From Lucinisca nassula (taxonomy: Eukaryota; Mollusca; Bivalvia; Lucinida; Lucinidae): 64,000 nucleotides of DNA. Under the pieces are notes generated by a model. That model was not told the origin of the DNA and searched no databases. It saw only the letters and a list, made by a program, of their open reading frames with translations. Of the stretch, positions 18,301 to 24,300 are shown piece after piece. Numbering within the stretch: the first letter of the stretch is position 1; each line of letters opens with the position of its first letter. The DNA lies in the NCBI GenBank assembly GCA_963580285.1, contig OY757011.1, positions 152,060,745 through 152,124,744 on the forward strand. The letters run 5' to 3'. A program made the translations under genes and the position numbers.

Positions 18301-21300
18301 GACATTGAGATGAAATGACATCTCAAGCCCTGTCGCCCAATGAAACCAATAGGGTTTATAAGCATTGACGGTCCGCCTCGCAGCGCGGTTCCTGGACAGG
18401 CTTATATCCTCTAAGCGGTTTACCAGTATCAGTGTGCGGGCCGGATTCAGCTCTGCGTGGAAGCATCTTACAGCCCATCTATTTCTTCAAGCCCCTATGG
18501 GCGGGGGCCGCCTTATCGAGGTGGTTCTAACGAGTACCCATCCTGTACATGTACATTTTTATAGATTGAGGGTACACGTCAGAACCGCCTCATCGCGGTG
18601 GTTCTAACGATTACTCTCAATCTATATTTCTAGTGCAGAAGGTTTACCACTGTATACTTAAATTTTACAATATAAAAGTGGGGTCAGAATTACATTAGCG
18701 CGTTTACATGATGGGAACTTTCTATTCATATAGAAACTAGGTGTATTCTACTGTGCAAGCGAATACAAAGGTGCTGTTCTGACTGCGCGAATGCGTAGGC
18801 TGGTCTGTTCTTCATTTGTTCGCCCTTAACGGCAGTAGTAAGCGGGCCACTTTGGAGTCATGGACTGCGCATGCGCAGCATTTGTATAACTTCCGGTGAA
18901 ACGTAAGGGAAACGATTAGATGACGAAACTACCCTAAATATCGGACGAGTGTTCGAATGACGTAACTCGCGGTAATTACGCCGTAAGTATCCTAAATGTT
19001 GAGGCGAAAGATGTTCCCGCGGATTGGCGAAGTTCGCCGTCCCCGATCTGGTCGGGGTGATCGGGGTCTACCCCGTTCGCTCGAGCGATCCTATCCCAAT
19101 ATTTAGGGAGATACTACCCGGTATAGTAGCGATGAAATTAAGTCTCTCACCCGCAAAACAATTATCGCCTCGAAAACCGGGAAACAATGGAAGGTGTTGG
19201 AAGAGCTCGACTCGATGCGAGAAACTAGGAATGGACCGCGTCCCGGAAAAAAAAAAGTTTGGTTCGTTCGATTTGAGGTTTCACGTCCCCGTCAACGCCG
19301 TATAGATCATTTGGGGGGGGGGGGCGTTGCTCCCAGTCGCGCGAGACCTTTACCGGACATATCTACGACATTTGTATCTCGGAGAATCTTTCTCGGCTAC
19401 GGAATTTATACGGATATCGCGGGGCGTAGCCAGTATGCATTATGAGAGTGGAGCGTAAAATGAGAAGCAAATGATGATAGGATTTTTGATCAGCCGTAAT
19501 TACCCTAAAAATTGGGGCACCTGAAGGGAGGTCACCGTAAATATCCTAAAGTTTGATCTCAAGCGATGTAGCAAACGTGTTCTGGTGGAATAGTGGAATG
19601 ACAAACAGTGCAGACCCTGGTCAGGGTGATCGGGATCTACACCGTTTTTTTCTGTCCCAATATTTAGGGTAATACTACCCGGTGCAGTCCTGCGATATTG
19701 ACAAATCGATTGTCTCCGACACTCAGCGCGAAACGCTTATCGCCTTTAAACTAGAAAACAATGAAACTCGCTGGAAGATAGCGTTTAGAAGGCTGATGTT
19801 ATCGTTTAAATTTCTAAACACGCTCGCTTCTGAATGGGCTGCAGCTGAGAAAAAAGTTTTTATCAAACATGTTTGTTCGATTTGAGGTTTAACGTCCCCG
19901 TCAACATAATTTAGGTCATTTTGGAGACGTTGCTTCCGAGCCGGCCGACATTGCGCTGAAATGACATCTCAATCCCTGCCGCCTAATAAAAACGATAGAG
20001 TTTATACGCGTGGCCGGGCCGACTCGCGGCTCTAAGCCCCCGATGGGCGGGGGGCGGATCAATCATTTTGCCCCGTTTTCGACATAGAAATATTTTTACC
20101 GAAACGAAATAGATTTAATACGTCCGCAAAGTCTGCGCGGTGTGACGGGACTTTTTAGGCCTTATACCGTTACGAAATTCCGCCCACGCGAATATATGGA
20201 AAAAATTACTAACCAATTTTTTTGGTTCGGGTTTTACGACCCTTTCAAGACTATTTTACTCATCCGAGTCGATCGTTATTCAGAGGTGGGCGAAAACCGG
20301 AGTGCCCGGAGAAAAACCACCTGACAGCAACACCTGCTGTCACGAAACTTCACACACGTATACCTACCATCACAACGGCCCCCGCCCATAAAGGCTCGAA
20401 GAAATATATGGGCTGCGTGATGCTTCCACGCAGAGTTGAATCCGGTCCGCACACTAGTACTTGTAAACCGCTTAGAGGATCTAAGCCTGTCCGAGCAAAG
20501 CGGTGCGAGTCTGTCAGTTCGCGCTAATAAACCCTATTGGCTTCATTGGGTGACAGGGCTTGAGATGTCATTTTTATAACAGACCAACGACTGAGGGCAT
20601 AGCGGAGGCGGAGCGATATACGCGCTCGATCAGGGTTAGCTCCGTTTGGTCAGGGGCAGTCGGTCAGTCGTTCATGCGAATTGTTGCGCGTGTTAAACGA
20701 AACGACGTCGTTTTAACGTTGTACGCGCGGCGTGTGCCAGTGCACGGCAGCAGCACTCTTCCAGTCCAACATTTAGGATATAACTACTGTCAAACGCTGG
20801 TGCGGTGCCATGGTCAGCTTAATAAGTGGGATGTTTGGCCTAGACCCTCTAAGCGGTTTACCAGTACTAGTGTGCGGACCGGATTCAGCTCTGCTTGGAA
20901 GCATCACGCAGCCCATATATTTCCCCTATGGGCGGGTGGTGTCTGCAGTGCCTGACTATACCCCCATTGCATCCTTACTGTATCCTGACTGTATCCCCAT
21001 TGTATCCTGACTGTACCCCCCGCTGTATCCTCACTGTATCCCACTATACCCTGACTTATTGGTTAGCTCCGTTTGGTCAGGGGCGGTCAGTCCGTTTGTT
21101 TGTTTGTTTGTTTGATTTGAGGTTGAACGTCCCCGTCAACACTGTATAGGTCATTTTGGAGACGTTGCTTCCAAATTTGTGGGACTTTTACCCGACATTG
21201 AGATGAAATGACATCTCAAGCCCTGTCGTCCAATGAAACCAATAGGGTTTATAAGCATGGACCGTCCGACTAGCACCGCTTTGCCTGGGCAGGCTTAGAT

Positions 21301-24300
21301 CCTCTAAGCGGTTTACCAGTACTCGTGTGTGATCGGTTTCAGCTCTGTGTGGAAGCTCTATTTCTCCAGACTCCGATGGACGGGGGCTATAGTAGTAGTA
21401 GTAGTAGTAGTATAATATTTTTGCTGAAAAAATATAAGTAGCTTTTGCAAATGCAAAATCTCATTTTTTCAGCAAAAATATTATACTACTACTACTACTA
21501 CTACTATAGCCCCCGTCCATCGGAGTCTGGAGAAATAGAGCTTCCACACAGAGCTGAAACCGATCACACACGAGTACTGGTAAACCGCTTAGAGGATCTA
21601 AGCCTGCCCAGGCAAAGCGGTGCTAGTCGGACGGTCCATGCTTATAAACCCTATTGGTTTCATTGGACGACAGGGCTTGAGATGTCATTTCATCTCAATG
21701 TCGGGTAAAAGTCCCACAAATTTGGAAGCAACGTCTCCAAAATGACCTATACAGTGTTGACGGGGACGTTCAACCTCAAATCAAACAAACAAACAAACAA
21801 ACGGACTGACCGGCCCTGACCAAACGGAGCTAACCAATAAGTCAGGGTATAGTGGGATACAGTGAGGATACAGCGGGGGGTACAGTCAGGATACAATGGG
21901 GATACAGTCAGGATACAGTAAGGATGCAATGGGGGTATAGTCAGGCACTGCAGACACCACCCGCCCATAGGGGAAATATATGGGCTGCGTGATGCTTCCA
22001 AGCAGAGCTGAATCCGGTCCGCACACTAGTACTGGTAAACCGCTTAGAGGGTCTAGGCCAAACATCCCACTTATTAAGCTGACCATGGCACCGCACCAGC
22101 GTTTGACAGTAGTTATATCCTAAATGTTGGACTGGAAGAGTGCTGCTGCCGTGCACTGGCACACGCCGCGCGTACAACGTTAAAACGACGTCGTTTCGTT
22201 TAACACGCGCAACAATTCGCATGAACGACTGACCGACTGCCCCTGACCAAACGGAGCTAACCCTGATCGAGCGCGTATATCGCTCCGCCTCCGCTATGCC
22301 CTCAGTCGTTGGTCTGTTATAAAAATGACATCTCAAGCCCTGTCACCCAATGAAGCCAATAGGGTTTATTAGCGCGAACTGACAGACTCGCACCGCTTTG
22401 CTCGGACAGGCTTAGATCCTCTAAGCGGTTTACAAGTACTAGTGTGCGGACCGGATTCAACTCTGCGTGGAAGCATCACGCAGCCCATATATTTCTTCGA
22501 GCCTTTATGGGCGGGGGCCGTTGTGATGGTAGGTATACGTGTGTGAAGTTTCGTGACAGCAGGTGTTGCTGTCAGGTGGTTTTTCTCCGGGCACTCCGGT
22601 TTTCGCCCACCTCTGAATAACGATCGACTCGGATGAGTAAAATAGTCTTGAAAGGGTCGTAAAACCCGAACCAAAAAAATTGGTTAGTAATTTTTTCCAT
22701 ATATTCGCGTGGGCGGAATTTCGTAACGGTATAAGGCCTAAAAAGTCCCGTCACACCGCGCAGACTTTGCGGACGTATTAAATCTATTTCGTTTGGGTAA
22801 AAATATTTCTATGTCGAAAACGGGGCAAAATGATTGATCCGCCCCCCGCCCATCGGGGGCTTAGAGCCGCGAGTCGGCCCGGCCACGCGTATAAACTCTA
22901 TCGTTTTTATTAGGCGGCAGGGATTGAGATGTCATTTCAGCGCAATGTCGGCTCGGAAGCAACGTCTCCAAAATGACCTAAATTATGTTGACGGGGACGT
23001 TAAACCTCAAATCGAACAAACATGTTTGATAAAAACTTTTTTCTCAGCTGCAGCCCATTCAGAAGCGAGCGTGTTTAGAAATTTAAACGATAACATCAGC
23101 CTTCTAAACGCTATCTTCCAGCGAGTTTCATTGTTTTCTAGTTTAAAGGCGATAAGCGTTTCGCGCTGAGTGTCGGAGACAATCGATTTGTCAATATCGC
23201 AGGACTGCACCGGGTAGTATTACCCTAAATATTGGGACAGAAAAAAACGGTGTAGATCCCGATCACCCTGACCAGGGTCTGCACTGTTTGTCATTCCACT
23301 ATTCCACCAGAACACGTTTGCTACATCGCTTGAGATCAAACTTTAGGATATTTACGGTGACCTCCCTTCAGGTGCCCCAATTTTTAGGGTAATTACGGCT
23401 GATCAAAAATCCTATCATCATTTGCTTCTCATTTTACGCTCCACTCTCATAATGCATACTGGCTACGCCCCGCGATATCCGTATAAATTCCGTAGCCGAG
23501 AAAGATTCTCCGAGATACAAATGTCGTAGATATGTCCGGTAAAGGTCTCGCGCGACTGGGAGCAACGCCCCCCCCCCCAAAATGATCTATACGGCGTTGA
23601 CGGGGACGTGAAACCTCAAATCGAACGAACCAAACTTTTTTTTTTCCGGGACGCGGTCCATTCCTAGTTTCTCGCATCGAGTCGAGCTCTTCCAACACCT
23701 TCCATTGTTTCCCGGTTTTCGAGGCGATAATTGTTTTGCGGGTGAGAGACTTAATTTCATCGCTACTATACCGGGTAGTATCTCCCTAAATATTGGGATA
23801 GGATCGCTCGAGCGAACGGGGTAGACCCCGATCACCCCGACCAGATCGGGGACGGCGAACTTCGCCAATCCGCGGGAACATCTTTCGCCTCAACATTTAG
23901 GATACTTACGGCGTAATTACCGCGAGTTACGTCATTCGAACACTCGTCCGATATTTAGGGTAGTTTCGTCATCTAATCGTTTCCCTTACGTTTCACCGGA
24001 AGTTATACAAATGCTGCGCATGCGCAGTCCACGACTCCAAAGTGGCCCGCTTACTACTAACGGCGGTGATATAAATTCTTTTACCCTTATCATGCTGTTC
24101 ACGACAACCCCTATCTTTGGAAACAGTGTAGATCCAGATCAGATAGCTTCTGAAGAAGCCATCTGATCAGGATCTACACTGTTTGACATTCAATTTATGA
24201 ATTTGTAGGAATAAATTGGATCAAGTAATTTGATTGGTTGATAGGCAGAAATAGGTATGGCTTAAATGAATATTCAGCAAGATAAGGGTTACACGAGAAA

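Follow-up and report, generated by a model that had tools for sequence, protein, structure and literature searches.

Maverick/Polinton elements occupy a place intermediate between transposons and viruses; that they replicate by protein priming has been inferred mostly from sequence. We relate to them here, and to several other described systems, a near-perfect palindrome of 5,225 bp (18834-24058) that lies within an intron in a 64,000-nucleotide stretch of the genome of the lucinid bivalve Lucinisca nassula (assembly GCA_963580285.1, contig OY757011.1, positions 152,060,745 to 152,124,744 of the forward strand; hereafter the window, whose coordinates and strands are used throughout). Among the end motifs of vertebrate Mavericks, 5'-(AGT)2//(ACT)2-3' is the most frequent; together with perfect 6-bp target-site duplications (TSDs) it has been used to mine genomes for these elements, and their end repeats have been linked to "jumping-back" during protein-primed replication (PMC8097293); a TSD of 6 bp is likewise given for Polintons (PMC8969392, PMC10045372). 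Intact vertebrate Mavericks measure 12.7-24.6 kb and have terminal inverted repeats (TIRs) of 46-1,447 bp. Galileo 2T copies and Tetris are non-autonomous elements made up solely or predominantly of TIRs, with tandem repeats within those TIRs and TSDs of 7 bp (Galileo) or 8-10 bp (Tetris). Among viruses, self-complementary "snapback" DNA forms a major category of the defective genomes of adeno-associated virus (AAV; PMC8235507), and palindromes of primate X chromosomes have arms that are more than 99% identical and richer in GC than their flanks (PMC8981503).

The palindrome was recovered by BLAST self-comparison, by alignment of its arms and by an inverted-repeat search. Its left arm (18834-21433, + strand, 2,600 bp) and the right arm that mirrors it (21463-24058, - strand, 2,596 bp) make up 5,196 of the 5,225 bp, and between them lies an asymmetric 29-nt spacer (21434-21462) that contains TTTTGCA-AA-TGCAAAA. 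A reading made earlier from the letters of the window (the sequence-only reading) had described two 2.6-kb arms with few substitutions and one 4-bp indel, and the arm alignment agrees: the arms are 99.8% identical, with four substitutions (18860/24032, 19313/23579, 20101/22795 and 21083/21813) and a single 4-bp indel (19940-19943), at which the inverted-repeat search split the palindrome into 19944-21433/21463-22952 and 18834-19943/22949-24058, both 100% complementary. That reading had also noticed that AACGGC abuts both ends, and copies of this 6-bp sequence indeed stand at 18828-18833 and 24059-24064 (both +, read directly). Between these copies the element opens with AGTAGT, or (AGT)2 (18834-18839, +), and closes with ACTACT, or (ACT)2 (24053-24058, +), the motif given in section 7 of PMC8097293. 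The first outward pair beyond the palindrome, C18833/A24059, is unpaired, so that the palindrome stops at the duplication. If the element is taken as symmetric the TSD is 6 bp, and the longest direct repeat at its borders is 7 bp. Matches of 6 bp across a gap of 5,225 bp occur at 27 of 58,763 window positions, the real one included (about 1 in 2,200), and AGTAGT is found 38 times on the two strands of the window, 22 of these outside the palindrome; given these frequencies, the conjunction of the end motif with a TSD is an unlikely coincidence, and an insertion with target duplication is supported.

The locus has in common with Mavericks its terminal hexamers, the (AGT)2//(ACT)2 form of a motif for which (AG)3//(CT)3 is also accepted, its perfect 6-bp TSD (a 7-bp reading is possible) and its long TIRs. 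It differs from them in having no recognisable genes, in its size of 5.2 kb, in that the TIRs take up almost all of its length, and in arms that are rich in host repeats. We favour the view that the palindrome is a gene-less Maverick/Polinton-type insertion, folded back at a hairpin repeat and integrated in trans into the intron, and put the probability of this at roughly 0.48, just short of an even chance; the odds given to the alternatives discussed below overlap slightly with it, as one of them, a template switch after integration, also has Maverick ends. Under the favoured scheme an old Maverick end of ~2.6 kb, already littered with dispersed repeats, would have been copied from its AGTAGT terminus by protein-primed synthesis, and on reaching the hairpin repeat the nascent strand would have folded back and used itself as template as far as that terminus, which would give two identical ends. 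This two-ended product may then have been integrated, with a 6-bp duplication, by a Maverick-type integrase supplied in trans by another element.

The point of reflection is itself a short hairpin repeat (21413-21480, delimited by local alignment), a second copy of which lies outside the palindrome at 39713-39792. These two align end to end with a score of 100, the asymmetric inner part included, compared with a best score of 52 when 20 dinucleotide shuffles of the centre were aligned to the window outside the palindrome. Fold-back copying requires short inverted repeats, and the hairpin pivot therefore counts in favour of a snap-back; such a pivot would be the trace expected from fold-back of a strand at a pre-existing inverted repeat. 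The palindrome resembles the AAV snapback genomes in that one end is mirrored about an internal point and a double-stranded RNA is predicted, but it is integrated in a chromosome and the likeness is by analogy only. Snap-back is also known from adenovirus incomplete particles, whose left ends are mirrored, and AAV is a parvovirus that is not protein-primed. Among the open-licence papers listed in literature searches, no title or abstract opening mentions a palindromic Maverick.

The hairpin at the pivot is also what would be expected if a Maverick-type insertion had turned palindromic after integration, one half being mirrored when a replication fork switched templates or a break was repaired at the central hairpin. 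Inverted duplications produced by template switching have been described (PMC10766183), and the repeat fragments that we label SINE-like (after short interspersed nuclear elements; see below) suggest a chromosomal past for the arm. Against this, the mirrored copy has to stop precisely at the second terminus beside an intact TSD, which would call for existing TIR homology or a chance stop, whereas an extrachromosomal snap-back would give the exact end free; we accordingly regard a template switch in the chromosome as distinctly unlikely. Long-read sequencing is known to yield palindromic reads as an artefact, so that an error of assembly or a missed adapter might also be proposed. However, a missed adapter would have mirrored the flanks as well, and here the two flanks are unrelated except for the duplication; moreover, there are five differences between the arms, and the asymmetric hairpin repeat at the centre occurs elsewhere in the window too. 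An artefact is in our judgement extremely improbable. As to age, seven of eight slippage-prone tracts, including (TAG)7, A10 and (GTTT)5, are of equal length in both arms, the eighth being a G run of 12 in one and 11 in the other owing to a substitution at its edge; one of the equal tracts is the (TAG)n microsatellite at 21390-21412 (+), mirrored at 21484-21506. Together with the 99.8% identity these tracts suggest a recent origin of the arms or homogenisation that is still going on.

The sequence-only reading had known of no named family with this layout, a statement that has to be amended, since Galileo 2T copies and Tetris are similar in layout and the ends and TSD length of the palindrome are those of Mavericks. 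This likeness gives rise to the alternative that the palindrome is a non-autonomous, TIR-only foldback transposon of another superfamily, whose TIRs grew by conversion and recombination, as in Galileo 2T copies and Tetris, and whose AGTAGT is coincidental. In its favour are the long TIRs that form nearly the whole element with almost no middle, the absence of recognisable genes, and two diverged tandem units in each arm that are ~70% identical by BLAST of the arm against itself (unit 1, 19048-19204, +, arm positions 215-371; unit 2, 19617-19778, +, arm positions 784-945); TIR growth is known in unrelated superfamilies, and the duplication, if read as the 7-bp TAACGGC, would match the 7 bp of Galileo. 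Compared by TSD length, the symmetric 6 bp departs from Galileo and Tetris, the value of Galileo being reached only when the last base of the element is counted as well, and with a longest border repeat of 7 bp we rejected a Tetris or Mutator-like foldback, for which 8-10 bp would be expected. In addition, AGTAGT is the Maverick motif, the 2.6-kb arms exceed the range of Galileo TIRs in D. mojavensis (18-1,250 bp), and the 99.8% identity of the arms, the 29-nt spacer and the use of a host hairpin repeat as pivot set the locus apart from both. A foldback transposon is, with the template switch in the chromosome, one of the two close rivals of the favoured scheme, if somewhat unlikely. Of other families with short duplications, IS3EU/GingerRoot elements have a 6-bp TSD and ends that are mostly TA..TA and occasionally TG..CA, while TSDs are 4 bp in Ginger1, 4-5 bp in Ginger2 and 3-6 bp in long terminal repeat elements (PMC10045372); since the ends here are AG..CT, we rejected membership of IS3EU/GingerRoot.

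None of the nine open reading frames (ORFs) of at least 80 residues in the left arm, the arm that was scanned, had a Pfam match above the cut-off, and a weak match to YjhX_toxin in 19107-19445 (14.5 bits against a cut-off of 27) was discarded. The left arm has no recognisable coding sequence, and by the genes missing from it the palindrome is not an autonomous Maverick but at most a derivative of one; judged by its sequence it would act as a non-autonomous element with Maverick-type ends. What the arm does contain is a dispersed repeat, 305 bp long and ending in (GTTT)n, for which "SINE-like" is our own label. Five pieces of it lie in a single arm against 0.8 expected (Poisson p=0.0014, each piece being assumed to be a separate insertion). 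From the end towards the centre of the left arm, these are fragment 1 (19259-19360, +), fragment 2 (19870-20030, +), fragment 3 (20376-20573, -), fragment 4 (20837-20936, +) and the near full-length copy 5 (21094-21387, +); a fragment of a second dispersed repeat (20217-20325, +), with copies outside the palindrome at 54532, 60439, 61046, 29065 and 40725, lies between fragments 2 and 3.

The sequence-only reading had further noted that the arms seem rich in GC and CpG compared with their surroundings, and had suggested that this would fit GC-biased gene conversion between them. The first part stands at the scale of the arm, as its GC content (0.483) and its ratio of observed to expected CpG (1.20) lie above those of all 536 overlapping 2.6-kb background windows, and fails at 1.2 kb, where the background reaches a GC of 0.488 (at 54001) and a CpG ratio of 1.49 (at 4851) against 0.475 and 1.41 in the outer 1.2 kb of the arm; composition alone is therefore less striking than it appears. 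For the second part we used the 305-bp repeat as a ruler, taking all of the 18 copies outside the palindrome and the five left-arm fragments with E-values of 1e-8 or less and leaving out weaker pieces as well as the right-arm copies, which are mirror duplicates. Changes were counted from a majority consensus, leave-one-out for the outside copies, columns that lacked a 60% majority being passed over. Whereas the outside copies had 104 AT-to-GC and 172 GC-to-AT changes, the two outer arm fragments had 31 and 9 (16:2 in fragment 1 and 15:7 in fragment 2; p=2e-6), to be compared with 62:91 outside over the same columns (p=3e-5). By contrast the three inner fragments (6:12, 3:3 and 3:8, in order towards the centre) gave a total of 12:23, with no AT-to-GC excess over the 104:172 outside (p=0.85). 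A permutation test of the trend, on a slightly different set of counts, gave p=1.5e-4, and the second dispersed repeat, which lies between, had 6:4 in the arm and 10:28 in its five outside copies pooled.

As conversion at the present day would reach the inner part of the arms too, the excess confined to the outer fragments is not explained by conversion alone, and we rejected the idea that the GC richness comes solely from GC-biased conversion between the arms as they now are. This bears on the alternative of an old chromosomal palindrome, a segmental inverted duplication kept identical by such conversion in the manner of the primate X palindromes. The composition of the arms at 2.6 kb and the outer fragments are what one would expect of it, since primate X palindromes show this kind of GC bias (PMC8981503). 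But the inner parts, in which the two arms match as closely as in the outer ones, lack the AT-to-GC excess expected throughout, and a TSD with transposon-type ends is unexpected for a segmental duplication; in addition to these features, its 5-kb size and its intronic position distinguish the locus from the primate palindromes. We rejected a gene-converting chromosomal palindrome on the first of these counts and consider this alternative very improbable. Two explanations are left: a different regime of change in the outer DNA before the palindrome arose, or a longer palindromic history of the outer parts.

From the end to the centre the five fragments diverge from the consensus by 19.8, 15.5, 10.5, 6.2 and 4.6%, and without AT-to-GC changes by 3.1, 6.2, 7.3, 3.1 and 3.5%. 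Because the gradient vanishes when this class is removed, age and bias are inseparable here, and growth at the centre in the manner of tree rings, while it fits the gradient in total divergence, is confounded with the AT-to-GC bias and is only a possibility. The graded AT-to-GC shift lets one ask when each part of the arm joined the palindrome. Pursued further, tree-ring growth would make the palindrome a mobile giant hairpin, a member of a defective Maverick lineage formed by snap-back, with growth taking place at the centre, where host repeats captured at the tip would be mirrored into either arm and would age as they move outward, AT-to-GC change increasing in that direction; within genes such hairpins would yield multi-kilobase double-stranded RNA able to feed small-RNA silencing of Mavericks, and they would be the integrated counterpart of viral defective-interfering genomes. 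We regard this extension as highly doubtful.

Several points weigh against the snap-back of a Maverick end that we favour. Genes typical of Mavericks (protein-primed DNA polymerase, integrase, capsid and others) were not found among the left-arm ORFs, the arm is largely debris of host repeats rather than clean viral DNA, and nothing related to its outermost 92 bp turned up in the remainder of the window. At each border AACGGC is preceded by a T (18827 and 24058), which allows a 7-bp repeat, TAACGGC, to be read; this gives the right-hand T to the duplication and leaves the element without its symmetric last base. The end motif was defined on vertebrate Mavericks, and mobility cannot be established from a single copy; moreover, one half of an older insertion could have been mirrored by a chromosomal event. 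Searches of prokaryotic and viral collections inform little on a eukaryotic element: the 20-mer at the end was absent from IMG/VR and GTDB contigs, the arm had no match in phage and plasmid collections, and eight IMG/VR loci with the 16-mer at the end were set aside as chance matches because similarity stops after 16-17 bases. Of the other probes, a 25-mer of the SINE-like repeat had no match in IMG/VR, and a 19-mer of the hairpin was found at 11 IMG/VR loci, none of which was matched by a BLAST search with the arm, the one check made.

If the favoured reading is true, the locus would be an integrated snap-back genome, a fossil of Maverick replication gone wrong in the way known from viral defective-interfering genomes, and a Maverick integrase would be shown able to insert molecules that carry ends only. 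The intronic position claimed in the sequence-only reading was borne out by an in-frame join of exons with GT/AG borders. A coding exon upstream of the palindrome (17051-17410, +, its start as modelled), the next exon of 105 bp (25118-25222, +), which directly follows the intron with the palindrome, and the last exon with the stop codon (34366-34890, +) form a single open frame, and the palindrome occupies 5,225 of the 7,707 bp (68%) of the intron between 17410 and 25118. Searched singly against Pfam the two longer exon frames had no match; with the joined exons as query we identified 12 relatives, of which 11 have a precomputed match to PF07801 (DUF1647), confirmed by a scan in both of the two relatives tested. 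The only named organisms among these relatives are the bivalve Potamilus streckersoni and the gastropod Candidula unifasciata (Stylommatophora). Were the palindrome transcribed with this host gene, the arms in the intron would pair over 2.6 kb into a very long double-stranded RNA, a hairpin with a stem of up to that length; this RNA, predicted already in the sequence-only reading, is what the geometry would give, and an inverted repeat of this size in a mollusc intron lends itself to tests of Dicer and ADAR.

The 305-bp repeat that supplied the ruler is a dense SINE-like family in the window, its 18 copies outside the palindrome lying in both orientations at about one per 3.3 kb. They are located at 59-264, 3457-3761, 7893-8173, 11289-11594, 12759-13034, 16586-16883, 17920-18188, 18201-18511 and 28202-28508 in the first half, and at 33445-33753, 36620-36923, 38540-38844, 42484-42584, 42997-43291, 52678-52934, 53132-53436, 53438-53729 and 57689-57938 in the second. 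Two small hairpins that have GATC-rich motifs in common (24120-24190 and 24930-24990) adjoin the palindrome, and a related motif occurs in the arm, where 29 bp of tandem unit 2 (~19596-19624) match 24163-24191 and 41535-41563 with 86% identity. At the gathering threshold Rfam reported nothing in the window except a tRNA at 6531-6603 (-), which is also reported by ARAGORN as tRNA-Thr (GGT) and is either a gene or the tRNA-like head of a repeat. Two open frames matched transposase domains above the Pfam cut-off, HTH_Tnp_Tc3_2 (PF01498) at 26309-27094 (+) and the Mos1-type HTH_48 (PF17906) at 48031-48561 (-). Shorter inverted repeats at 10054-10529 and 51524-52095, with arms of 196 and 175 nt that are 97-98% complementary, may be young TIR elements.

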